A stretch of DNA of 41,586 nucleotides from Turicibacter sp. GTDB lineage: Bacteria; Bacillota; Clostridia; Lachnospirales; WQUN01. Where the stretch lies: NCBI GenBank assembly GCA_009778175.1, contig WRKH01000319.1, positions 1 to 41,586 on the forward strand. The letters run 5' to 3'. Within the stretch, counting starts at the first letter, position 1, and the number at the start of each line of letters is the position of its first letter. A program made the translations under genes and the position numbers. Of the stretch, positions 2 to 40,753 are shown piece after piece. Under the pieces are notes generated by a model. That model ran no database searches. It was not told the origin of the DNA and saw only the letters and a program-made list of their open reading frames with translations.

Positions 2-95
2 GGATTATGAACTTACCGTTAATTCTTCCGAAAATATGTCTATTATCTCTAATTTGCATACTCTTTTGAAGAAAATTTAGTTGAATACAGGCTCT
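2..95. repeat. left copy of a 94-bp terminal inverted repeat (matches reverse complement of 41493..41586)
   Basis: ggattatgaacttaccgtt...ttgaatacaggctct read here equals the reverse complement of the window end. Confidence 0.95.
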
Positions 96-3000
96 TAGAA
101 GTTAAATGTAGTGGCACTTCTAAGCCGTATTTATCAATTAGGGCGGACAATCCGCTAAAATCGGCGTGTCTGGAATCCGACTGTGCGTTCATTACAGCGA
201 CTAATTCCTGCTCACATTCACGGACGGCGTTTGGGTTTTCGGAAAAATCGGAAAGAAAAAGCCTAGTTGAGGGAGTTTCCTCAATAGGCTGTTCCTTTGT
301 GGCTAGTTCGTTAATTGGGACATCGCTATTTCTCGGGCTTGTGCTTGCATCATGCTGATTTTGCCCTTGTCTTTCGGATTCCACGTTCCCTGTTTTTTTG
401 CCGTTTCCGTCATCTTGTTGAATATCTGCTCCTCGGCTGTCGCTGTTTGGTGGGCTTGTTGCGTTTCGACTTTCTCCTGCTGTTGTTGATAGGTTGCCAA
501 TTCCGCCGTGGTCATTTTCGCCATTTTCTCCCAAAATTCCTTGATTGGCGTTTGGAACATCTCCGAGATTAGAGTTTGCGGCGTTTCCGCCACTTCCTCG
601 TTCGTTAGCGTGAAGATTATCTCGTTCAGCCTCGATAGGGCTGTTGTTTCTTGCCATTCCGTCAATTCCGCTTTCAATGCCGATATTTTGGGTTTTTGAG
701 CCGTTTTCAGCTGACTCTCCTTGGCTATCATTTCGGTTAGGCTTGTCTGCCACTTCTCCTCTTCCTTGGCTTGGGAGTTCCGTATTTGTTCCGCTTGTTG
801 GAGTTCCTGCTCCGTCCGCTGTTGGGCTGTCTGCTCGGCGGCTTGTTGTAGCATTTCCGCCATGCTCGGTTGATTCGGCGGTTGTTGGACTTGTCGGCGT
901 GTCCGTGATATTTGGATTATCTCGCTGTATTTCGTTTTGAGAAATTCCTCCGCCAATTGTTCCAACTGCTCTGTTGGAAGAAATATTTGCATCTCCGCCA
1001 ATACTTGGCTGTACTGATTGTGAAGATTCTTGTAAGCTGTCGCCGCCGTCTCGCTCGCTGTCGGTAGGAAGTTCAGCCGGTATTTCGTCTCCTCGTCCGT
1101 CCTCTCCCACACTTCCGCCATCGCTGTTGATATTTTCATTCCCACCGCTAGGCGTTCCGACTCGCTCATCGCTTTGTGCTGCTCCGACCACGTCATTTGT
1201 TGATTTTTCGCCATTTTTTAATCCTCCTACATTTTCCTCTGATATTTTGGGTTCTAAATCTCCCAATTCTATCCTATCAGAAAAATCTTCTTTTGTCAAG
1301 TTTTTTTGTCCGCCCTGGCGGACAGGCGAAAATAAATGTGAGTTGCGTGGGTCGGCTTGCATTAAGTCCGAAAATTTTTCGACTGTAATTGTAAATTCAG
1401 AACTCCTAGCGAACATTTCAATATCCTGCTCGTTCGGCGTAGGCTCTCTTTCCAGCATTATTTTGTTATCTACTAAATTTGTTAAAATGTAGGGATTTGG
1501 ATCGTCAAGCTCGGGATATATCATGTCGCCTACTTGCAATTTGCGAGGTTGTTCCAATTCCGCTGTGTCTGCAACATATTCTTGTTGTGTTACCTCGTTT
1601 TCGGATTGAAATGTGTTCAGCATACGAAAAGTATCGTCAATTTCTTCTTGCGTGGCACCAAGTGCATACTCGCCATTTCGCAAACGCTCTTGAACATTAG
1701 TCCAAAAATTGTTGATATGATTATAAAGCCCAGATTGCTCAGCGTTGTAATCTCCTATGTCATATCTAAAATAGTAGGTAGACAATTCAGTATCTGTGGG
1801 GTCATCTTTGAAAAAAATTAAGCCGCGCGTTTTATCGTAGCCACCACGCTGTTCTGCACGGCGTTTGCTTTCGACTTGCTTAAATTTATTGTCTGCCTCG
1901 TCCAAAGATAGCCGCTCAAATTCGTTAAAATCGGGGCTTTCGCTTGATTCTATCACAACAAAAGGCTTTGTGTAATCGGCTGTGTTGGATTTAGTTTCGG
2001 CTACAAAAGTTTCCCAATCGATTTGAGGGGCTTGCGAAGGTTTCGATTGCCTGGTAACGGTTTCTTCTTCAATCTCGTAATCTTCAACGCTGCCAAACTC
2101 CCTCTCTAATGCTTGATTGTATTCTTCTTGGCTATTCATACGTTCGCCTTGAAAATATTGAGGAAATTCCGTTTTGGCTTGTGCAGAGAGGTCTTCCTCT
2201 GCAATGTTCTCCTCTGCCATTTCTTGCTCATCCGCATTTATAATTTGAGAAATCGCATAATTCCCCTGCCCCAGTTCGATTGGATTCGTCGACTCCGCAA
2301 CGACAATATTCAACCCCTTACTTTTTAGCTGTTCAACAACATTGTCAAGACTAACAGCAGGAAAGCCCACAAACCTTGATATTGCTGAATTTGTTATCGG
2401 TACAACGCCAAAACCCAAATGTTCCGCCAGCAAATCGGCGTGTTTTTCATATGCCTCATAATCGGCTTCGTGGAAAAGTCCAAATTTGTACAGCACAATG
2501 TTTGTATTAGGCGGAACGTGTGGGGCAACGTCCGTAATGGCTTGTTCACGGCGTTGATGGTAGGGGTTGGGTTGCTCTTCTTGCGGCTCGGTATCTATTT
2601 CTTGTCGTTCTTTCGTCTCTTCTGCTCTCTCCGAAAATTCCTTTGTGGCGACCTCAATCTTACCAAAGACATTTTTAATAGCGGAAAGGGTCATATTATG
2701 CAAGCTGTCTTGCTCGCCACGCTCGTAAATACTTGGAACATTGTATTCCAAAATTTCAACGGTATGGGGTAATGGCTCGTTGGGGTACAGCCGCTTTACT
2801 ACTGATAAATAGGCACTATGCTTGGCGGCAAGCGTTATATCGGTCTTCTCGGCTGTTGTAAACTCGGATTCTATTAACTCGTAAATAGCTTGGATTTGCG
2901 TTGCCGTTTCGCCGTTAAATGGGCGTTTTGGCGTAATTATTCCGCCCAAAATCTCGTCCGCCGTTTCTTTCGTAAAATTTTCAAATCTGTTCGGAATAGG

Positions 3001-3258
3001 GCGAGCGTTCTCGGTGGGGACGGTTTGCGAGATATCGTACAGCCGCCTATCTACCAAAAATCCTACTGGGGTAAGTGTATTCGGTACATCATATCCAAGT
3101 TTTTGCCATTGGTCTAAGGTCGCTACTGTTGGATTTGTGATTTTTAGGGTCTTCGTAGATTCAAAAATCTGTTGTTTGGTGCTTTCGTTATCGATTCTGT
3201 ATAGGTGGTTGGCTGTGGTGCTGATAAATTCTTGCCAGTTTTCTTGTGTTATTTTCAT
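49..3258 (-). CDS. ICE large polyvalent protein: MutS-I-like segment, LPD25-like domain, long disordered G/S/N-rich region, DUF3849-like C-terminus
   Basis: 1069-aa ORF; 'YKFGLFHEADYEAYEKHADLLAEHLGFG...GFPAVSLDNVVEQLKSKGLNIVVAE' resembles MutS domain I; 'YYFRYDIGDYNAEQSGLYNHI' resembles LPD25; C-terminus 'ALIDKYGLEVPLHLTSKSLYSTKFSSKEYAN' resembles DUF3849. Confidence 0.8.
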   Translation of the reverse strand: MKITQENWQEFISTTANHLYRIDNESTKQQIFESTKTLKITNPTVATLDQWQKLGYDVPNTLTPVGFLVDRRLYDISQTVPTENARPIPNRFENFTKETADEILGGIITPKRPFNGETATQIQAIYELIESEFTTAEKTDITLAAKHSAYLSVVKRLYPNEPLPHTVEILEYNVPSIYERGEQDSLHNMTLSAIKNVFGKIEVATKEFSERAEETKERQEIDTEPQEEQPNPYHQRREQAITDVAPHVPPNTNIVLYKFGLFHEADYEAYEKHADLLAEHLGFGVVPITNSAISRFVGFPAVSLDNVVEQLKSKGLNIVVAESTNPIELGQGNYAISQIINADEQEMAEENIAEEDLSAQAKTEFPQYFQGERMNSQEEYNQALEREFGSVEDYEIEEETVTRQSKPSQAPQIDWETFVAETKSNTADYTKPFVVIESSESPDFNEFERLSLDEADNKFKQVESKRRAEQRGGYDKTRGLIFFKDDPTDTELSTYYFRYDIGDYNAEQSGLYNHINNFWTNVQERLRNGEYALGATQEEIDDTFRMLNTFQSENEVTQQEYVADTAELEQPRKLQVGDMIYPELDDPNPYILTNLVDNKIMLEREPTPNEQDIEMFARSSEFTITVEKFSDLMQADPRNSHLFSPVRQGGQKNLTKEDFSDRIELGDLEPKISEENVGGLKNGEKSTNDVVGAAQSDERVGTPSGGNENINSDGGSVGEDGRGDEIPAELPTDSERDGGDSLQESSQSVQPSIGGDANISSNRAVGTIGGGISQNEIQRDNPNITDTPTSPTTAESTEHGGNATTSRRADSPTADGAGTPTSGTNTELPSQGRGEVADKPNRNDSQGESAENGSKTQNIGIESGIDGMARNNSPIEAERDNLHANERGSGGNAANSNLGDVPNANQGILGENGENDHGGIGNLSTTAGESRNATSPPNSDSRGADIQQDDGNGKKTGNVESERQGQNQHDASTSPRNSDVPINELATKEQPIEETPSTRLFLSDFSENPNAVRECEQELVAVMNAQSDSRHADFSGLSALIDKYGLEVPLHLTSKSLYSTKFSSKEYAN
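303..1214 (-). CDS. nested overlapping ORF (303 aa, helical Q/E/A/K-rich) inside the 1069-aa ORF, different frame, same strand
   Basis: AGGAGG (1223..1228, minus strand) 8 nt upstream of ATG at 1214; 912-nt open frame with protein-like composition over the disordered part of the host ORF. Confidence 0.6.
   Translation of the reverse strand: MAKNQQMTWSEQHKAMSESERLAVGMKISTAMAEVWERTDEETKYRLNFLPTASETAATAYKNLHNQYSQVLAEMQIFLPTEQLEQLAEEFLKTKYSEIIQISRTRRQVQQPPNQPSMAEMLQQAAEQTAQQRTEQELQQAEQIRNSQAKEEEKWQTSLTEMIAKESQLKTAQKPKISALKAELTEWQETTALSRLNEIIFTLTNEEVAETPQTLISEMFQTPIKEFWEKMAKMTTAELATYQQQQEKVETQQAHQTATAEEQIFNKMTETAKKQGTWNPKDKGKISMMQAQAREIAMSQLTN
1308..1328. repeat. GC-rich palindromic insertion element (in frame)
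   Basis: gtccgccctggcggacaggcg; GTCCGCC-CT-GGCGGAC; encodes PVRQGGQ. Confidence 0.5.
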
Positions 3259-3286
3259 GTCTAATCCTCCTGTTTTTAAGTGAAAA

Positions 3287-3310
3287 AGGCACGAGGGGTG
3301 GTTCGTGCCT
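3287..3310 (-). terminator. rho-independent terminator
   Basis: minus strand AGGCACGA-accacccc-TCGTGCCT followed by TTTT. Confidence 0.75.
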
Positions 3311-4638: not shown

Positions 4639-6717
4639 CTATTTTGAGTGTGAGTTGGGCTTTTTGGGGTTTTCCTTGCGAGCCGCCGCTTGCTGTTGGG
4701 CGATTGTGTGGGTTTTTGGCGGCTCGGTTTGCTGTGCGGGTTTTTCCTGCTGTGCGGTTTTATCACGTTCCGTCCGTTCTAGTGCAAGTTTAACTGTTTG
4801 TCTGACAAAATCCGCAATGGCAGGTGTCGTTTTCTCGTTATATAAATCAGAGGAGAAAAAGGTTTCGACTGGTTTTTTTGTGTCGTCCGCCAAAGCTAAT
4901 TGAAAATCCTCGTTGAACCTTTTTGGGTTGCTATATAACACAAACGGCACGACTTCGGGTTTTGGCAGATTCTCGAATGTGCTTGTTATAGTTCCTTTTA
5001 TGAGGATTGGCTCATTATTCAACTGCGCGACTAAGCTGGGAATTTCTATTTTTGAGAAAGAGATTTTGGTTTCCAAGCCGCCTATACCAAAATCTTCAAG
5101 ATTGGTTAGCTGTGAATAATCCGATTTTTCATGCGTGATTTCGGGCGGTTTTAACTCTGCTAATTCCGCTTTTAAATTTGCTATTGTGTTCTGCAAGCCG
5201 AATTTTTCCTCGTTTAGAGACTCGATTTGGGTGTCTTTTGTGGCGATTATCTTATCTTTTTCGGCGAGTTGAGTTGAAAAGTCCTCTTTCGTAGTTTGCA
5301 TTTCCGTTCGCAGGACTTGTATTTGCTGTTTGAGGTCTTCAAATGTGGTAATCTGCTCCTGTACGGACGGAAATGGTTGCGGTTGCTCGGCGGTGGTCTG
5401 TACAGGCTCATTGCTAGGTATTTGTGAATTAAAAAAATCCGACTGTTCGGCGGATTTATCGGGATTGTTTGGATTGTTGGGCAACAAATCTGACGGTTCA
5501 GCGTGATTGTTGAGAGACTGCTCGGACTGCTTGGCTTGCTGTCTATCGTCTCGGATTGTCTCCGCCTCGTATGCGATTGCATCGATTTTGGCGATTTTCT
5601 CCTCACAATGAGCAATCTCTTTTTCGCAAATTTTGATGTTCTCTTCATGCCCACCTATTAGCCCTTTTGCAATCCAACCAAGTTCGTTTTCCTTGTAAAC
5701 AGCGTCTTTGCCGACCAACGCCCTGCCGAAATTCTGCACGTCTTCGCCAATTTTGTGATAGAATTTGGCTATATTGGTATATTTGTCGATTTTAGCTTGG
5801 CTTTTCTCGATTGCGGCTTTATCAGCGGCTATTTCTGACTGATACGCTCCCTTTGTGTCGAAAAATGTGTTGAGTTTGTCCGCTCCAAGCACTTTTGCAT
5901 TGTGAGCAATGGTTTTTAATTTTTCTATGAAACCTCTTTTGCGACCGACGTAGGCTTGGCGGTCTTCTAGGGCTTCTTTGTTGGAATTGATTAGGTCGGT
6001 GGCTAGTTCGTTCTCCTCTTTCCGCAAGCCGCCTTTTGCTTGTATGGCTTGCTTTTCGGCGATTTGCTCTTGCATGAAAGCCATTTGTTCTTGCATTGTG
6101 GCAATTATGGTGGTGTGGGCGGCTATTTCCTCCTGCATGAGAGGGATTATATTACCTTTTATCGTATCAAGGTCTTGCTTGTTTTCACGAGCGGCATCGA
6201 GCATTGCACCTGCAAGGATTTGTTGTGGATTTAGGTTGGCGGTTGATTGAGTAGTAGGCTCTGTATTGGCTTGTTGTTGTGATTGAGAATTTTTCTCCTG
6301 TTGTTGGTCGTCAAACGCCGCTTTTAACTCCTTAAATCTTGCCGTTTTCACAAGGTCAGTTACTTCTTTACCAACCCAATGCTTTCCACGAATACCAACT
6401 TTATCCTTAGATTGGGACAATAGCCCCTCTTTTATCAACTGGTCTCTTAGAGGTTTCGTAATCCCAAACTCCGTTTCAAGTTTTCCTGCATTATACGTAT
6501 ATACGTTATTTGGTATTACAGACTGCAATGGTGTGATTCGTGGAGTCGTATTGGCTGGCTGTGCGTTGTCGGCAACTGACTCTGATTGCTCATCGTCATT
6601 GGGTTGACTACTAGCCAAATTGTCATAAAATGCAGGGTCGTCAAATGTAGGCGGCATTTGGCTATCGTCATAGTCTGTAACTTCAACATTGTTTATATTT
6701 TGCTCGTTTTCATTCAT
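4639..6717 (-). CDS. possible internal-start isoform (692 aa) lacking the toxin and MutS-like domains
   Basis: AAGGAG (6726..6731) 8 nt upstream of in-frame ATG (MNENEQNINN) at 6717. Confidence 0.4.
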   Translation of the reverse strand: MNENEQNINNVEVTDYDDSQMPPTFDDPAFYDNLASSQPNDDEQSESVADNAQPANTTPRITPLQSVIPNNVYTYNAGKLETEFGITKPLRDQLIKEGLLSQSKDKVGIRGKHWVGKEVTDLVKTARFKELKAAFDDQQQEKNSQSQQQANTEPTTQSTANLNPQQILAGAMLDAARENKQDLDTIKGNIIPLMQEEIAAHTTIIATMQEQMAFMQEQIAEKQAIQAKGGLRKEENELATDLINSNKEALEDRQAYVGRKRGFIEKLKTIAHNAKVLGADKLNTFFDTKGAYQSEIAADKAAIEKSQAKIDKYTNIAKFYHKIGEDVQNFGRALVGKDAVYKENELGWIAKGLIGGHEENIKICEKEIAHCEEKIAKIDAIAYEAETIRDDRQQAKQSEQSLNNHAEPSDLLPNNPNNPDKSAEQSDFFNSQIPSNEPVQTTAEQPQPFPSVQEQITTFEDLKQQIQVLRTEMQTTKEDFSTQLAEKDKIIATKDTQIESLNEEKFGLQNTIANLKAELAELKPPEITHEKSDYSQLTNLEDFGIGGLETKISFSKIEIPSLVAQLNNEPILIKGTITSTFENLPKPEVVPFVLYSNPKRFNEDFQLALADDTKKPVETFFSSDLYNEKTTPAIADFVRQTVKLALERTERDKTAQQEKPAQQTEPPKTHTIAQQQAAARKENPKKPNSHSK

Positions 6718-7512
6718 TTTAATCTCTCCTTTTAATTTAGATATATTTGGGTACAAATCAGTTGTACCGTCTGTGCGACTTACAGCCACGGATTGATTCG
6801 CAGAGGTTATGACGGCGATAACGTCTGCTAAATCGGCTTGCGGAATGCGCAGGGTTTCTTGTGTGTCGGTGGTTTTTATGCCTGTGATTATAGGGGTTGT
6901 GGGTAGGTTGAGGAGTTTTGCGGCGGCGGTGGCTTGGTTGCCTATTATAATGTAGTCGTTGCCTTGTTGCAGGAAGAGTGCGTGGTTTGGGTGCTTGGCG
7001 GATTCGGTAGTGTAGGTGGCGTGGAGGGTTATGTCGGCTTGCTCAGCGAGCATGAATTTTTCGATACGTATGGCATCAGGGCGATAAGTTACAGGTTTTT
7101 TATACTTTCTGAAATCTTTTTCAAGGTCGTTGCCTATTTTCTCAAATTCAGACACCTTATTTGGATTTGTTACATTAACGTGTTGTTTTCTTATGGTGTA
7201 CGGAGTAGTTATGTAGTCTTCGGATACAGGAAACATATCTTGTAACAAAAATACAGATTTAATACCAAAAGTTTTTAGCGGTTGGATGCCTGAAACAGAT
7301 TTATTTTTGCTTTGTCTGTCAAGTATCATATTTTGATATTTGTTCCACTGTTTAGTGCATGGGGCAACCCAATATAAACCAGTAGTATCATCTTTTTTAA
7401 TGACATATACTGGTCTAACATCGCCTTTGAAAGCTTTGGGTAGTTTAGGGTCGTTAGCTTTGATATAGAAATCATTATCCAAAATATATAAATAACCTCG
7501 TTTGACACTCAT
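4639..7512 (-). CDS. fusion protein: N-terminal CptN/ToxN-like type III toxin domain + MutS-I-like domain + coiled coil + basic C-terminal tail
   Basis: 957-aa ORF; N-terminus 'KRGYLYILDNDFYIKANDPKLPKAF...RPVYVIKKDDTTGLYWVAPC...LLQDMFPVSEDYI..PY...RPDAIRIEKFMLAEQ' resembles CptN-type toxins; sits downstream of a repeat array and terminator. Confidence 0.7.
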   Translation of the reverse strand: MSVKRGYLYILDNDFYIKANDPKLPKAFKGDVRPVYVIKKDDTTGLYWVAPCTKQWNKYQNMILDRQSKNKSVSGIQPLKTFGIKSVFLLQDMFPVSEDYITTPYTIRKQHVNVTNPNKVSEFEKIGNDLEKDFRKYKKPVTYRPDAIRIEKFMLAEQADITLHATYTTESAKHPNHALFLQQGNDYIIIGNQATAAAKLLNLPTTPIITGIKTTDTQETLRIPQADLADVIAVITSANQSVAVSRTDGTTDLYPNISKLKGEIKMNENEQNINNVEVTDYDDSQMPPTFDDPAFYDNLASSQPNDDEQSESVADNAQPANTTPRITPLQSVIPNNVYTYNAGKLETEFGITKPLRDQLIKEGLLSQSKDKVGIRGKHWVGKEVTDLVKTARFKELKAAFDDQQQEKNSQSQQQANTEPTTQSTANLNPQQILAGAMLDAARENKQDLDTIKGNIIPLMQEEIAAHTTIIATMQEQMAFMQEQIAEKQAIQAKGGLRKEENELATDLINSNKEALEDRQAYVGRKRGFIEKLKTIAHNAKVLGADKLNTFFDTKGAYQSEIAADKAAIEKSQAKIDKYTNIAKFYHKIGEDVQNFGRALVGKDAVYKENELGWIAKGLIGGHEENIKICEKEIAHCEEKIAKIDAIAYEAETIRDDRQQAKQSEQSLNNHAEPSDLLPNNPNNPDKSAEQSDFFNSQIPSNEPVQTTAEQPQPFPSVQEQITTFEDLKQQIQVLRTEMQTTKEDFSTQLAEKDKIIATKDTQIESLNEEKFGLQNTIANLKAELAELKPPEITHEKSDYSQLTNLEDFGIGGLETKISFSKIEIPSLVAQLNNEPILIKGTITSTFENLPKPEVVPFVLYSNPKRFNEDFQLALADDTKKPVETFFSSDLYNEKTTPAIADFVRQTVKLALERTERDKTAQQEKPAQQTEPPKTHTIAQQQAAARKENPKKPNSHSK

Positions 7513-20465: not shown

Positions 20466-23400
20466 CTACCAGCCAGTCTGTGGCAGTCGATTATTCCCAC
20501 CAAAAATAGTAGTCCCAGCAGTAGAATTACCAATAACCCATTCAATACCATGCATCCCGCCAACATCAACCCTATTAGCAAACACCATTCCGTTAGGCAA
20601 CACCGTATGCGACCGTGGCAAAACATTCACAATAACTCGAGCATGGTCAACCATAGTAAACCTCGCTGGCACCTGCCCAAAATGTACGCTAAACTCCGCC
20701 AAAACTCGCCCTGTGCAAATCCCAAATGTGCCGCTCCAAGCTCAATAACATTGTTCCTAGCACTCGACAGATTATCCGCAATAATAAACTCATTTCCGAG
20801 ATTCGTAACACCTCGAACATTATAACGAATATCAGCATTAAACGTACCTGTAACCAACTGATGAGCACGTACAGCTTGCGTTGGCAAAATATCTCGCCAA
20901 AAGAAATCCGTCAAAGATACGCTGCTTTCGTTGCGAATATTGCGAACCTCGTAAGTCATCTGATTGCCCTGCATAATTTCACGAGGTGCGGTTTTGTCGA
21001 TATTTACGCCAATATTTGCCGAATAGTTGACGAAAGTCGCCCTAATTATTTGCGTGGCAAATTCTATATCAAAATGCAATTCTTCCCGATTTATCATGTA
21101 AAATTGCGGTGTTGCAACCTCTATTGCAAAATAACGCCCCAACGGCAACGGACGTGATACAGCGATTCCTCGATTGTTGGACTCTATGCGGTCAACCAAA
21201 TTCCCAGTCCGATATTCAAAAATCTCAAAAACAGCCCCTTGCAAAGGCGTTCCTGCGGGCAATCCGTTAAGTTGGTTATCGTCAGCAGAAACCTTCGTTA
21301 TCTGCAACTGCCCCGCCATCGGCACATTTTCCCAACGGATTTCTGTGATTTGACCAGCGGTAAATTCTATCGTCCGAGGAATGTCATCCGAAAAATATCC
21401 TGGTGCAGGGCGAGTTTCTCGGATCGTATACCGCCCTGGCTGCAAAATTCCGCTCAAATCTATCAAGCCGTTGTTATCCGTGTAAAAAACACCGACAACA
21501 TTGTTGTTTTGGTCAAAAATCATAAATTCCACGTTATAAATCGGCGCACCCGTAACGGCATCTACTTTCAATATCCGAAGACCCGCCAATCTATGGTTGA
21601 CAACCTCCAAAACCGCTTGATGTCCTGCCGTAACTGTAACTGTGTGTACGGTTTGATCAAGCTGGTAGCCTGGTAAAGCCCGCACCTCAGTAACACGATA
21701 AACCCCAGGAGTGAGGTGGTTGAGCAAAATGCGGCCGTGTGCGTCCGTTACGAAACCGCCTGTAGCCGTCATTTGTGGGCTGTTTGCAGCTGTGCTTGGC
21801 TGATTTTGGTCGATTATGCTGCCTTGCACAAGCCGTCCATCTGCGTGGCGAATCTCAAATTCCACACCTGCGAGCGGCTCGCCTGTCGCTCCGTCCGTTT
21901 TCACGATTAACAAGCCGCTTGCAGGGGTATTTTCAACCACTAAAACGTACTCTTGCTGGCGTGTTTGCGGCGTTATGTGGAACATTATCGGCTCGGATAA
22001 TCCGATAAAACCTGTGGCTGGCATGGTTTCCGTCAAGAGATACGAACCGTAAGAGAGGGCGGGCAGGTAAATAAGGCCGTTACGGTCAGTTACGAAATCA
22101 AAGAAGCCCGTTTGTGGGTTGCGGACTCGAGTTGACTCGATAAAATCGCCGCCGAGTCTTGTGATTTCAAAGACTACGCCCTCAATCGGCTCACGTGTAA
22201 CCGAGTTGATTTTTCGGATTATAAGGTCGGCATGGCGGAAATTTTCTATTGTGATTACCCGATTTACGCCCGTTTCAACCGTGAACAAAGTCGGCTTGGC
22301 GAGCTGATAACCGTCAAGCGGTCGGGTTTCTATGGCTATGTAACGCCCTGCGGGTAAGCTGTTGAGGTTAATCCGCCCTGCGTTGTCGGTTGTCCATGTT
22401 GTGGTTAGGTCGTTGGGGTTTATAAGGCGTTCGCCTGCTGTACCATTGCCTAAATCTCGGGCTATTTCAAACTGCACTCCTGCTAAAGGCTGTTGCGTGT
22501 CGCCATCGATTTTTAGGATTGCGATGTCCGTTTCTCGGAAATTTTCTATCGTGATAACACGAGAATTGCCCGTTTCCACCGTGAAAAGTGTCGGCTCGGC
22601 AAGCTGATAACCGTCAAGAGTTCTTGTTTCGATTGCGATAAAACGCCCATTTGGTAAGGCGTTTAGAGCGATTCGTCCCGCATTGTCGGTTGTCCAAGTG
22701 GTGGTTAGCGTGGCGAGATTTATCAGGCGTTCGCCCGCCGTGCCGTTTCCGAGGTCGTGGGCTATTTCAAACTGAACACCCGCCATTGGCTGTTGCGTGT
22801 CGCCGTCTATTTTCAAAATCGCCATGTCTGTAAATCGGAAATTGCGGATTGTTATGATGTAGTCCATATTGTAGCCGACTTGGAAAATATGTGGCTCAAT
22901 CGGTGCAAAGCCTGGAAGCGGACGAGTTTCCGTGGCTACATACGTACCCGAGAGAAGTTCTGGCAAACGTATCAATCCTGCACTGTCGGTTAAAAATTCA
23001 AAGCCGCCCGTAAAGGAATTTTGTATACGAGCACCGTCAAATGCACTAATTTCAAAAGCTACGCCCTCGAGCGGTAGATTGGTTTCGCCGTCCACTTTTT
23101 GGATAACAACGGTGGATAGTCGATAGTTGACAAAACGCTCCGTTCGAGATTGCCCTGCCGCAAATTCAATCGTTCGAGCAGGTTCAGTGATGGCAAAGCC
23201 AGGTGGTGGGCGAGTTTCGATGATTTGGTACGCTCCTGGGGAAATATTGGGAACGGTCGCTATTCCACCCATGTTTGTAGTAACCCGTGCGACCAATTCC
23301 CCGCCAAGCGTACGCACCTCAAACTCCGCATTAGCAAGTGGATTCCCATCCCCGTCAACCTTTTCAATAATGAGACTAGGTGCGGGAAAATTCACAAACC

Positions 23401-26400
23401 TAAGCGTTTGACTTTGCCCTGCCGCCATTACCACGGTTTGACTTGGCTCGGTAATAACAAAACCTGGTGGTGCTCGAGTTTCGGTAACTACGTATGTGCC
23501 TGGCTCAAGGTTTGGTAATGTTGCCATTCCACCTTGTGAAGTAACAACCCTCTCCACCAATTCCCCGTCAAGCGTACGCACCTCAAATTCCGCATTAGCA
23601 AGTGGATTCCCATCCCCGTCAACCTTTTCGATAATGAGACTAGGTGCGGGAAAATTCACAAACCGCACCGTTGCCGTCTGCCCCGCCTGTAACTGCACCA
23701 TCTGCGAAACCGAATCCAAAACAAAGCCAGCAGGTGCTCGAGTTTCTATGACCTCATAAGCCCCTGGCTGCAAACCCGTAACAGTCGCTATACCACCTTG
23801 ATTCGTAATAACTTCAGCAACTCTCGTCCCCGCAATGGTACGCACCTCAAAAACCGCCCCCGCAAGAGGATTGCCGTTTTCATCCGTCTTCTCTATGACG
23901 ATTGTCGGCATTAACTCATTGACAAAACGGAGAGTCGCCGTCTGCCCTGCCTGTAAATCCACCGTTTGAGTGCCGTCCATAAGGACAAACCCAGCGGGTG
24001 CACGGCTTTCCGAAATTTGATAAACCCCTGGGTAAAGGTTAAAAATACTCGCTGTGCCGCCGATATTGGTCGTAACACGCTGAATTAACGTCCCCTGAAC
24101 GGTGCGTATTTCAAACTCCGCTCCTGCTAACGGATTGCCCTGCCCGCCAACTTTTTCTATAACGATGCCAGGATTGCGGATATTCACAAATCTCGCCCTC
24201 GCCACGGTTTCGGGCAAAACTCGGACACTTAGCCCTGGGGTCATCATCGTGTAGCCTAGAGGGGCTTGCAGCTGCTCCACATAGTACCAGCCCGATTGCA
24301 GATTCGGGACAGCGACAACGCCGCTTGCACCCGTGATAAATGTACCCACATACGTGCCGCTCTGGTTGCGGACTTCCACAGTTGCCCCCGCAAGTGGAAC
24401 GCCGAACTCGTCAATAACTTCGATAATTAAACTGCCCAATCTCGCCGAAACAAAGGTTTCAATCGACCGAGCCTGTGGGCGGATTTCCACGTTTCGGACG
24501 GTTTGCGGGTCAAATTCAAAGCCGTGAGGCACTTCAATTTCCCGAACAACAAACCAGCCTAGCAAGCCGTCAATCTCAATCAAGCCGTTGTGGTCAGTGA
24601 TAAATTCGCCGATAAGTTCGCCATTTATGCGGGTTACATTAAAACGAACACCCGAAATCGGCGTATTGTCAAAAGCGTCGATTTTTCGGATAACCAGCCC
24701 CGAATATGGGCGGTTCGTAAAATCTAGGAAATATGTTTGCCCATCTGCAGGGATAAAAATCGTCTGCGGAACAGCTGCCGTGCCGAGTGTGTAGCCATTT
24801 GGTGCGACAATCTGCGTAACGACAAAACTCCCTGGCGGCAAATTCGGCACTAAAAATTCGCCCTGTGCGTTTGTGCGGAAAATACCGTTCCCTGTGCCAA
24901 CGACAGCACCGCTGGAATCCTGTACACGAAACTCGCCATTTGCCAAAGGCAGTCCTGTAACCTCATCTCGTAAGGTTACAAGTAGCGAGCCGTATGGGTG
25001 GTTGGAAAATTCCAGCTGCAAAATCGTGTGCCCGTCTGGCATGAGAAAACCGTGTTGCATATTGTTGAGGGAAAGCACATAATTGGGCGGTGCTTGGGTT
25101 TCTCGGACGGCGTAAGTACCTGGCACAAGCCCTGTAATCACGATAGTACCCGTGTGGTTTGTGGTGTACGTGCCAATGACCGTGCCGAGCGTACCGCTGA
25201 CCCCTGCCGAAATGTGGATAAGTTCAAAGGTCGCACCTGCCAAGAGCCTCCCTGTTGTGAGGTCGGTTTTTCGGATTATAATTGAGTTTAGCGGCCAGTT
25301 CCAGACCTCATCGCCCGTTTGAAATTGGCTGCCGTCTGAAATTGAAATTTGACCTGCCACCATTGCTCGAATTTCATCGTCCGTCATGTTTTGGGCTTGG
25401 TCAAAAGTCGGGGAAATGCCGCTTAATTCGGGCGGTGGGGTGGGTTCGTAGATTTCGGGCGGGAGGGGTTCGTTTTGTTCGGGGATTTGCGGTATTTCCA
25501 CCCTGTTATCTACTTCAATTCCAAAAATATGGGGAATCAAGCCGTCTTGGATTAGCTGATAGGTGTTCTGCCCAGGTGCTAGAAAAATTCGGTAGCTGTT
25601 GTTGACATTTAGCGACATTCCAGGGGCAGCACGGGTTTCCGTTACCCGATACCAGCCTGGTTGTACGAAAGGCAGGACGATTCTGCCATTTTGGTCAGTT
25701 AGGAAATGCCCTAGATTTATGACATTGCCAGTGTTTGGGATTTCAAATTCCACTCGGAATTGCGTGAGCGGCACGGGCTGGAAAGTTAGGGCGTTCATTT
25801 TTGTGATTATTAGGGACGGCAGTAGTGTGTTTTCAATGATTAGCGTGTAATCCTCATTTGCTCGGATTTCTATCGTCCATGAGCGGTTTTGTTCCATTGG
25901 GTCTAGCCAGTAATTGTTTGCCGCTCTTGTTTCTATGATTCGATAAATGCCTGGCGGGAGTTCGTGTAGGCGGATTCTGCCGTTTTCGTCTGTTCTGAAC
26001 GGGTTGCCTGTGAGTAATCCTGCTCCTGGTTGGCTGAGTTTTTCTATGGTAAATTCAGCGTTTGGAATGGCTGTGCCTGTGATAGCGTCTCGTTTTATGA
26101 TTTCTAGGTAGGGGCGGCGGTTGTAGAAAGTTACGGTGTTGTCCTCGCCAGCTCGTATGGTTACAGTCTGCCAGTTTGGGCTGGAAAGGCTGTAGCCTGG
26201 CGGCGGGATTATTTCTGTGATTATTAGGGTGCGTTCGCCTTGCCCTTCGAAAAGCATCCCTGGTATAAAAATCCGACCTTGTCCATCTGTCGTGAATGGC
26301 GAACCTGCGACTGTCTGACCGTTTTCATAGACTACTTCAAAGACCGCTCCTGGTAGTAATTCTTGAGTGTCTTGGTCTCGTTTTATGATGGTCAAGCCTG

Positions 26401-28669
26401 GATTTTCATAGTTTCTTAAAATTATCTGATTGTTGTCGCCTGGGCTTAGGATTATTTCCTGCGGCGTGGAGATTAAAACATAACCTGGAGGGGCTTGGAT
26501 TTCCGTTAAAATGTATGTCCTAAACGGGATTAATTCGTTGCCATGCGAACCTCTTCCGAAAATGAAAATGCCGTTTGTGTCGGTTGTGCCTAGCCAAGTT
26601 TCGCCTGTAACAGGGTCTCGAAGTTCAAAAATTGCCCCTGCTAGGGGCTCGCCTGTGTTGCCGTCTATTTTTTGGACTTCTAAGCTAGATTTTTGGATAT
26701 TGTAGAAATTGATGGTGTTTGTTTGACCCCAAGTTATCGAGATGGATTGTGTGGGATTGTCAGGGGGCATATAGCCTGGGGGTGGAATTATTTCAGTAAT
26801 GGTGTAATGTCCTGCTGGCAGATTGTCAAATAAAATTCGACCAGAGCCGTCTGTTATGCCTGTGCGTTCTATGGGCAATCCGCTCGCATTACCGTCCACC
26901 GAAAAGCCCTCAATGCGGAAATGTGCACCTGATAGGGGTTCGCCTGTTAATTCGTCAAATTTCAGGACTTCTACCGCTCCGTACGGGTAGTTTTCAAATG
27001 TGATTAAAATGGAGCTGGGTACGTATTCTTCCGAGATGCCGAAACCAAAAACCACCTCGAAATTTTCGCCCAAGGTTTCTAGCAAATTTACTACATCTTC
27101 GAGTGTGATTTCGTCTGGGAGTTCCCATTCGGCAACCTCTCGGAAAGACATGACTACGCCGTTCCACGTAACCAAAACGTCCCAATCATCGACGTTTATG
27201 GTTATGTTTGGCGGGTGTAGCCAGAAGCCGTATGCTGTGTGTTGGGGGAGTAGGGAGTAGCCATCTGGTGCACGTTCTTCCTCTACCATGTAGAAACCCC
27301 ATGGTAGTCCAGTAATCGTCCAAACACCGTCTGTTACGGTGCTGGTAACGCCCTCGCTGCTTGATGTTGTTGCTCCTGCGGTTAGGACTTGCGAGAGATT
27401 TATGCCTGTGTTATCGAAGCTCCACGTAACATCGCCTAGATGACCGCCATCTGTTGAGCCGAAATGGGCGGACATTCCACGCAGACGGACTAGTGCGCCT
27501 GGGATATTTTCTCGGGTTAGTGCATCGATTTTTTGGATTGTTACTTCGCTGTTGGGGAGGGGTGGTGGTGGGGCAGGGGCGGGGGTTGGAGCGGGGGTTG
27601 GAGATGGAGTTGGTGTAATGCCTGGAGTGGGCGTTGGGGAGGGTGGTTCGACAACAATAACTCTCAATGCTTGAAAATACTCCACTCTGCCGCCAGGATA
27701 ACTTCCGCCGACTGTCTCTGGGGTAAAAACAAAATGGTTTCCGTGTTTGGAAAGATTTATTGCATATCTAAGCATATCTCCGCCGCCAAGTTGAGAGTAT
27801 GGGGCGTAAACATGACCGTATCCACGGACTCGCCAATCTGCAGCTTGATAGAAAAAAGTGGTAGTTCCAACCATTTCCGAGGTAAGGAGCAAAGTTTCGT
27901 TTAGCCAGCCCGCAGCAAGTGAAGTTTGTGCATCGGTTGGAATCAAGGCGGGAAAATTACTTGTGTTTATTGGGCCTGAAGATTGAAAGTTGCGGTACCG
28001 TTCTAAATATGCTTGGATATTTGGAGGAGAGTTTGCGGTCATTCCGCTTGGGATTGAGTGGTCTTGAAACACGAGCGTATCTCCCACAAAAGCCGATAAT
28101 GTCGGCACATCAATGGTGTTTGGCGTATTGATGTCAAAATTTGTAAATGAGCCGTTAAATGGGTCAACTTGTGGATTTTGAAAGGTATCTATGCTCTCTA
28201 CCATGCCTATGATTTCGCCCGTAAAATCTTGATTTGTTATAGAAAAATGTGCCGTGGGGGTTCTGACAATGTTATTTTGCGAGATGAGCTGTCGAGCCGC
28301 CAGACGATTTGCTTCGCTCCCAAATCTGAGCCGTCCGTTCAAATCAGCTATAACAGGTAGGTTCAATGAGTTTACAAAATATTGTGCCCTATACATATTT
28401 GTGGGTCCGTTGAATTGTATCCGTGGAGTGGCTTCAAAGTTATCGACTATTTGCATGGTATAACTCATATCGCCGTATTGTATGCGGGCGGCGGGTGATT
28501 CAGTGGGTTGTGTTATTTGTGATGGTTGAGGTGTTTGGGGTGTTTGTGCCGCTTGTACGTTGTTTAGATAATGGGTTGACCATTCGGACGGTAGTAGCCC
28601 TCCTAAGATTATCGCAATCATTGAAAATGCGATTATTGTTCTGGTTTTCCTGCTTAGTTTTCTTTGCAT
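20466..28669 (-). CDS. giant secreted CnaB/SpaA-type repeat adhesin, C-terminus frameshifted near 20690-20705, ending in LPQTGW
   Basis: signal peptide; about 21 CnaB-like modules '(I)(I)(E)K(V)DGDGNPLAGAEFE(I)R...'; last segment continues in another frame (20466..20702) to RLPQTGW. Confidence 0.85.
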
Positions 28670-39643: not shown

Positions 39644-40753
39644 TTACTTTGTTTCGTTGTTTGGGCTACTGTTGGATTTTTTGGCTTGCTTGGCAGCTCG
39701 GCGGGCGTCTGCCTCTCGCTTGGCTATTGTGTAGGTTTTGGGTTTTTCGGCGGTTTGTGTAGCTTGATTCCGCCGTTCTAGTTCCTCTACTTTTGCCTCC
39801 GCTGCTTGCCTTGCCTGTTGCTCAGCTTGCCTTGCCTTTTGCTCGGCTTGCCTTGCCTGTTGCTCGGCAAACAATTTTTCCTCCAAAGCTGCAATATGCT
39901 CCTTGTATTTCTCACGCTCACGTTCTCGCTCTTGCCGCTCACGTTCACGGTCTTGCAAAGCCTTCCGCCTACGCTGCTCCCACTCGTTGACCTGCGGCGA
40001 TATTACTGCACTTCTAAGTTCCTGCGACAGTGTCAACGCCGTTGCATTGGTTATGTTTGCCATTTTAATTGTCCTTTCCATATCCTTATGCGGAGTCTTC
40101 AAAACCTTGCAAATATCCCAAAGTGCATGATACTTTTCGTCCAAGTTCTTCTTGGTTCTAGGCATCTTTGACAATTCTATCAAAAACATCTGATATTTAT
40201 CGTCTGGAAATAATTTTCTGCCAGTCTCTCGTATCGTGAACAGGTCTATACAGGAAACGAAATTTTTGTTATCCGATAAATTTTTTAGCTTAGACGTTGA
40301 AAATCCTAGCTGTATCACATCGGGTGCATCTTCGTATTCCTTGCCACTCTTTAATCCCATTTTTGTTCTGTTGGAAAAACTCAAAACAATTCGCTCTGGG
40401 AAATCATGTTGTGGCTCTTTTTGAATCTCCATGCCGATATTTGTGAGTTTTATGCGGTTTTCAAACTTTCGCACACTTTCGCCCGTTATGTCGGCAATCA
40501 TCTTTTTGTCGTCCAAAACTTCGGGTGCATCCGCTTTCTGCACCGTTGTCTTGTCCACTTTGGAAATAGGCTCAAAACCGTATATTTTCTGCACTTCGTT
40601 CACGATTTCCGTATACAGAGCGTTGTTTTTGTTGTTCATGAAAATGTGTTCGGTGATAATGTCGCTAGTTACCGTCTTTAAGCCCAAATACCAGTCTAAC
40701 TCCGCTTGGGTTATTTCCACGCTATTCACGTTATTTTCGCTATTTTTGCCCAT
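39644..40753 (-). CDS. Rpn/PD-(D/E)XK nuclease family transposase-like protein with R/E/Q coiled coil
   Basis: 'IGMEIQKEPQHDFPERIVLSFSNRTKMGLKSGKEYEDAPDVIQLGF'. Confidence 0.7.
   Translation of the reverse strand: MGKNSENNVNSVEITQAELDWYLGLKTVTSDIITEHIFMNNKNNALYTEIVNEVQKIYGFEPISKVDKTTVQKADAPEVLDDKKMIADITGESVRKFENRIKLTNIGMEIQKEPQHDFPERIVLSFSNRTKMGLKSGKEYEDAPDVIQLGFSTSKLKNLSDNKNFVSCIDLFTIRETGRKLFPDDKYQMFLIELSKMPRTKKNLDEKYHALWDICKVLKTPHKDMERTIKMANITNATALTLSQELRSAVISPQVNEWEQRRRKALQDRERERQEREREREKYKEHIAALEEKLFAEQQARQAEQKARQAEQQARQAAEAKVEELERRNQATQTAEKPKTYTIAKREADARRAAKQAKKSNSSPNNETK

Follow-up and report, generated by a model that had tools for sequence, protein, structure and literature searches.

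A 303-aa open reading frame (ORF) lying entirely within a 1069-aa ORF on the same strand (nested ORF, 303..1214; host ORF, 49..3258; both on the minus strand) is, judging from the sequence, probably a real dual-coding gene that is translated by internal initiation; no homologue of its product was found in the collections searched. Dual coding is the reading best supported by the TnpV genes that occupy comparable positions in related elements, by an excess of openness in the nested frame, by a Shine-Dalgarno (SD) sequence and ATG at the start of the stop-free stretch, by skewed synonymous codon choice in the host and by a phase shift in its codon-position composition. In particular, the overlap is probably real because related elements carry TnpV in this frame and in linkers of this type, and the nested ORF is a variation on an arrangement already used there.

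The host ORF and the element that carries it

The window, that is, the whole stretch of 41,586 nt that was analyzed, is one entire contig, and the host ORF is the gene at its low end. The features needed below are as follows.

49..3258, minus strand: host ORF, 1069 aa, with an ATG start and its own AGGAGG; a large polyvalent mobile-element protein
2992..3246, minus strand: N-terminal stretch of the host (residues 5-89), with a weak likeness to the N-terminal domain in the giant ORFs that host TnpV
1705..1971, minus strand: host LPD25 domain, residues 430-518 (PF18840; E 6.4e-13)
1223..1228, minus strand: SD sequence AGGAGG, 8 nt 5′ of the nested ATG, inside the host VGG codons
1218..1220, minus strand: nested-frame TAA stop, one codon 5′ of the nested ATG
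303..1217, minus strand: low-complexity host linker (G/S/N/T/D), sharing its bases with the nested gene
303..1214, minus strand: nested ORF, 303 aa, running from ATG to TAG in the +1 frame relative to the host ORF
49..302, minus strand: C-terminal tail of the host past the nested gene

The window looks like a conjugative element, and on the same strand as the host ORF it carries a gene with a TraG P-loop, a TrbL gene, a gene for a CD1107-like protein and one for an M23 peptidase protein that includes a CD1108-like stretch. The host shares LPD25 with the large polyvalent proteins of that family at a score above the curated cut-off (49.6 bits; cut-off, 27), whereas the relatives found had little in common with it beyond the LPD25 neighbourhood. 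Comparison of the host N-terminus with the profile of the domain found in the TnpV-hosting giant ORFs, which we take to be ArdC-N-like, was suggestive only (hhalign E 0.0019, probability 14%). Viral and genome contigs, plasmids and phages, when searched with the host protein, yielded one match, to LPD25 only; no close orthologue of the host was found in the collections searched, and a search for orthologous elements through the neighbouring 421-aa gene gave one weak match only. Just before the host start, at about 3280..3310 (minus strand), a strong hairpin is followed by a T run, resembling an intrinsic terminator, and the host may therefore have its own promoter.

The predicted start site of the nested ORF

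The distance between the two start codons (3258 − 1214 = 2044, which is 1 modulo 3) places the nested ORF in the +1 frame of its host. Its start region reads 5′-GTAGGAGGATTAAAAAATGGCG-3′, with AGGAGG at 1228..1223, a spacer of 8 nt and the ATG at 1214..1212, and the host translation across the SD is N-V-G-G-L-K-N-G. The original prediction, which had described a 303-aa ORF fully nested in another frame of the 1069-aa ORF, opened by AGGAGG-8 nt-ATG and with an SD that itself encodes VGG of the host, thus agrees with the coordinates (1228..1212, minus strand, for the opening) and with the host translation. The entire minus strand (41.6 kb) has only 10 copies of AGGAGG, and several of these stand ahead of gene starts. 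We estimate that a suitably spaced copy would precede a given ATG by chance in about 1 in 600 to 1000 cases, and that this rarity is a factor independent of the openness statistics given below. The RNA around the nested start is predicted to be weakly structured.

Since the nested-frame TAA lies just before the ATG, the stop-free stretch is in effect the nested ORF itself. The same stop bears on the possibility that ribosomes shift from the host into the nested frame to give a fusion protein instead of initiating internally. An A-rich tract that could invite such a shift (host codons TTA AAA AAT, read as A_AAA_AAT) does follow directly after the SD-like element, but it suits a −1 shift while the nested frame is +1, the TAA bars entry from upstream, and an SD with a spacing of 8 nt to the ATG makes an ordinary start site. 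We therefore regard frameshifting as highly improbable, and favour internal initiation because of the standard SD-ATG, the weakly structured start region and the blocked upstream entry.

The predicted product (MAKNQQMTWSEQHK...) would begin MAKNQQ, or AKNQQ. A single-sequence AlphaFold model of it was all-helical but poor, with low confidence (pLDDT 58, pTM 0.29).

Openness of the two frames

To compare the openness of the nested frame with chance, the amino acids of the host were held fixed and synonymous codons were resampled from the usage of the element. Over the 304 codons no nested-frame stop was seen where 6.0 ± 2.1 were expected (P = 6e-4). When the segment's own codons were shuffled, a test that is conservative if the nested gene has already shaped the host codons, about 3 stops were expected and none was seen (P = 0.005 to 0.008). 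A stop in the +1 frame arises only where a host codon of the form xTA or xTG precedes an A or G. Such codons specify hydrophobic residues, and the expectation in the linker is low because these residues are few there, as against about 12-22 stops expected over a comparable length of ordinary stretches of the element's genes. The openness of the nested frame is mostly, but not wholly, due to this scarcity. The original prediction had named codon bias of the host frame as an explanation that would undo it; composition and codon bias account for the length only in part.

These numbers also bear on the possibility that the overlap arose by chance, with few hydrophobic residues giving few xTA or xTG codons and few +1 stops, and with the open frame and the AGGAGG-ATG as coincidences. 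The lowering of the expectation to 3-6 stops per 304 codons favours this explanation, as do the lack of homologues of the nested protein in the collections searched and a codon-likeness that, past openness, does not discriminate. Against it stand the P values for openness, which run from 6e-4 to 0.008, the position of the SD-ATG at the exact start of the open stretch, the abnormal synonymous codon choice and the repeated occurrence of real genes (TnpV) in this frame within comparable linkers. We consider chance unlikely.

The test was also run in reverse. With the codons of the nested gene resampled synonymously, the host frame contained a mean of 16.9 stops and was never free of them in 20,000 trials, and shuffling the nested gene's own codons gave zero host-frame stops with P = 0.0015. 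The host frame, likewise, is no side effect of the nested gene, and both frames are more open than synonymous resampling permits.

Codon choice and phase of the overlap

Over the nested interval, synonymous codon choice in the host was strongly skewed (G = 126.8, 37 df), with GGA, CGA, AGC, ACA and GCA in excess. The corresponding G/df was 3.42; the 52 control windows averaged 1.5 and reached at most 2.9. In the same interval the third codon position of the host resembled second-codon-position composition (score +0.039; control maximum, 0.031) and its second position resembled first-codon-position composition (+0.097; control maximum, −0.029), so that both scores exceeded those of all 52 controls, in the pattern expected from a nested +1 gene. 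The position-2 score is due in part to the glycine-rich linker; the position-3 score is cleaner, with a small margin. Most of 13 TnpV overlaps showed similar phase-shift values and nearly all of their flanks did not.

Inside the ORF the nested-frame coding score rose from about −0.5 per codon to about +0.2; past it, in the host tail (49..302), the nested-frame statistics dropped while those of the host frame stayed normal. Both the coding score and the phase shift are partly a result of the low-hydrophobic composition of the linker. A codon-likeness z of 4.66 (control maximum, 2.58) was set aside as reflecting mostly the absence of stops. When stops were scored neutrally, controls reached a z of 5.19 where the nested ORF had 5.20, and the known TnpV overlaps had an average of 0.7, so that codon-likeness beyond openness is not discriminating.

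The same compositional data bear on which of the two frames came first. The original prediction was of overprinting in a disordered linker. The low complexity (G/S/N/T/D) of the host frame across the nested ORF was borne out, and dual coding in this linker from an internal SD is the best-supported part of the proposal. Overprinting also implies that the nested frame arose second, which is only one possible order; taken by codon position, the base composition agrees with the nested frame as well as with the host frame, or better. The nested gene may instead be the older one: an upstream gene that ended after LPD25 would have lost its stop and read through a pre-existing gene for a helical protein, with the G/S/N/T/D linker as a by-product. 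Such an order, which is compatible with dual coding now and overlaps it in probability, would explain why the composition of host positions 2 and 3 is that of nested-frame codon positions 1 and 2. A helical gene read out of phase yields just such residues, and this order is in keeping with the similarly low-complexity linkers in which the conserved TnpV sits. The improbable openness of the host frame given the nested protein (0 of 20,000 by resampling; 0.0015 with own codons) and the continuation of the host for 84 residues with normal coding statistics argue against it, and we hold it as a minority possibility.

TnpV genes nested in related elements

The precedent for the present overlap comes from TnpV (PF14198), a conserved Pfam family whose hosts have linkers equally low-complexity in appearance. 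When TnpV loci of related genomes were surveyed (L016-L045), 14 of the 30 were nested in a longer same-strand ORF, all 14 in the +1 frame, as is the 303-aa ORF. Two relatives of the host (L011 and L012) likewise contain nested +1 ORFs in a low-complexity linker, which are TnpV by Pfam (E 1.7e-20 and 1.4e-18). TnpV was found inside long LPD25-carrying ORFs at L011, L012, L062, L064 and L065, most with SD-like sites, and TnpV-bearing loci were also noted at L010-L012 and L062-L068.

The nested ORF and TnpV are thus alike in lying on the same strand and in the +1 frame, within a low-complexity linker of a large polyvalent mobile-element protein; TnpV often has its own SD-ATG, and the phase-shifted composition is similar. 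They differ in that homology between the two proteins is undetectable, in length (303 aa as against roughly 100-200 for TnpV), and in position, the nested ORF coming after LPD25 whereas TnpV lies between the N-terminal domain and LPD25. In addition, no SNF2 part was detected in the 1069-aa host, unlike in the TnpV hosts.

Could the nested protein itself be a very divergent TnpV? The sole profile alignment paired nested residues 284-299 of 303 with TnpV columns 93-108 of 111, which brings the two C-termini into register, but it was not significant (hhalign probability 0.4%, P 0.14). The nested protein had no match to PF14198 (cut-off, 27 bits), there were no TnpV matches in the whole of its own genome, it is longer than the TnpV ORFs seen (about 100-200 aa), and the N-terminal GKYGRMR-YLK motif was absent by eye. 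Membership in the family is therefore quite improbable.

Nor did other searches reveal relatives of the nested protein. No homologue was found among 196 relatives, 391 genomes of the class and 325 of the order (overlapping sets), and none in GTDB contigs by peptide pattern, a scan that detects close relatives only, or in viral contigs or plasmids. It matched no known family in Pfam, and a sequence search of the PDB gave nothing significant. Two loci considered as homologues (L002 and L070) showed weak helical matches to HsdM-like and NusA-like proteins, which were taken as chance.

Proposed double reading of one message

Under dual coding, one mRNA of the conjugative element would be read twice. 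Translation from the host start would yield the 1069-aa LPD25 polyvalent protein, while ribosomes starting independently at the internal AGGAGG-ATG would make a 303-aa protein, probably helical, from the +1 frame. The host may tolerate the overlap because the shared 304 codons would encode only a flexible linker between the LPD25 region and the tail; we infer both the translation of the nested ORF and the flexibility of the linker. On the ground of homology to lambda Xis, a role in excision has been postulated for TnpV of Tn4451 (PMC3158075). By analogy, the nested protein might conceivably be an accessory that helps the element to excise, transfer or establish itself and that is made together with the host protein, a role that we put forward only tentatively.

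The linkers of large polyvalent mobile-element proteins could be recurrent nurseries for +1-frame genes, with unrelated proteins arriving independently, an idea to which we give slightly less than an even chance. If true, an element would pack two proteins into one stretch and make both from one message. The survey of TnpV loci, about half of them nested, suggests that this group of mobile elements commonly has +1 overlaps, and the +1 nesting of TnpV is apparently a general overlap in mobile elements that is little described: a limited literature search found no description of it, although such a silence says little about whether one exists. To our knowledge, long gene pairs that are fully nested on one strand are rare in cellular genomes, and most annotation rules discard such genes; a 303-aa product would be long for its kind. 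The TnpV overlaps provide ready positive controls and suit analysis of the OLGenie type. The pop gene, one of the long embedded overlapping genes described from bacteria, is similarly a long ORF entirely within another gene, ompA, and differs in being antisense and studied by experiment (PMC7103648), whereas the present ORF is on the same strand, in the +1 frame and known from sequence alone.

Other features of the element

A second +1 stop-free stretch lies at 5247..5654 (minus strand; 135 codons, GTG start) within a gene for a 957-aa protein (4639..7512, minus strand). It contains no stops where 2.9 were expected (P 0.014), and its coding score is slightly negative. The N-terminal 150 residues of the 957-aa protein match the CptIN type III toxin family (NCBIfam NF047359; E 2.7e-25) with 89.0 bits, just under the cut-off of 90, and this CptIN-like part is joined to a long protein in which a DUF6674-like region occurs. 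At 20627..28669 (minus strand) the window encodes a surface-protein-like product of 2680 aa with about 21 SpaA/prealbumin-like stretches, and at 39644..40753 (minus strand) a gene for a transposase of the PD-(D/E)XK nuclease family is located between two transfer genes, one TrbL-like and the other TraG-like.
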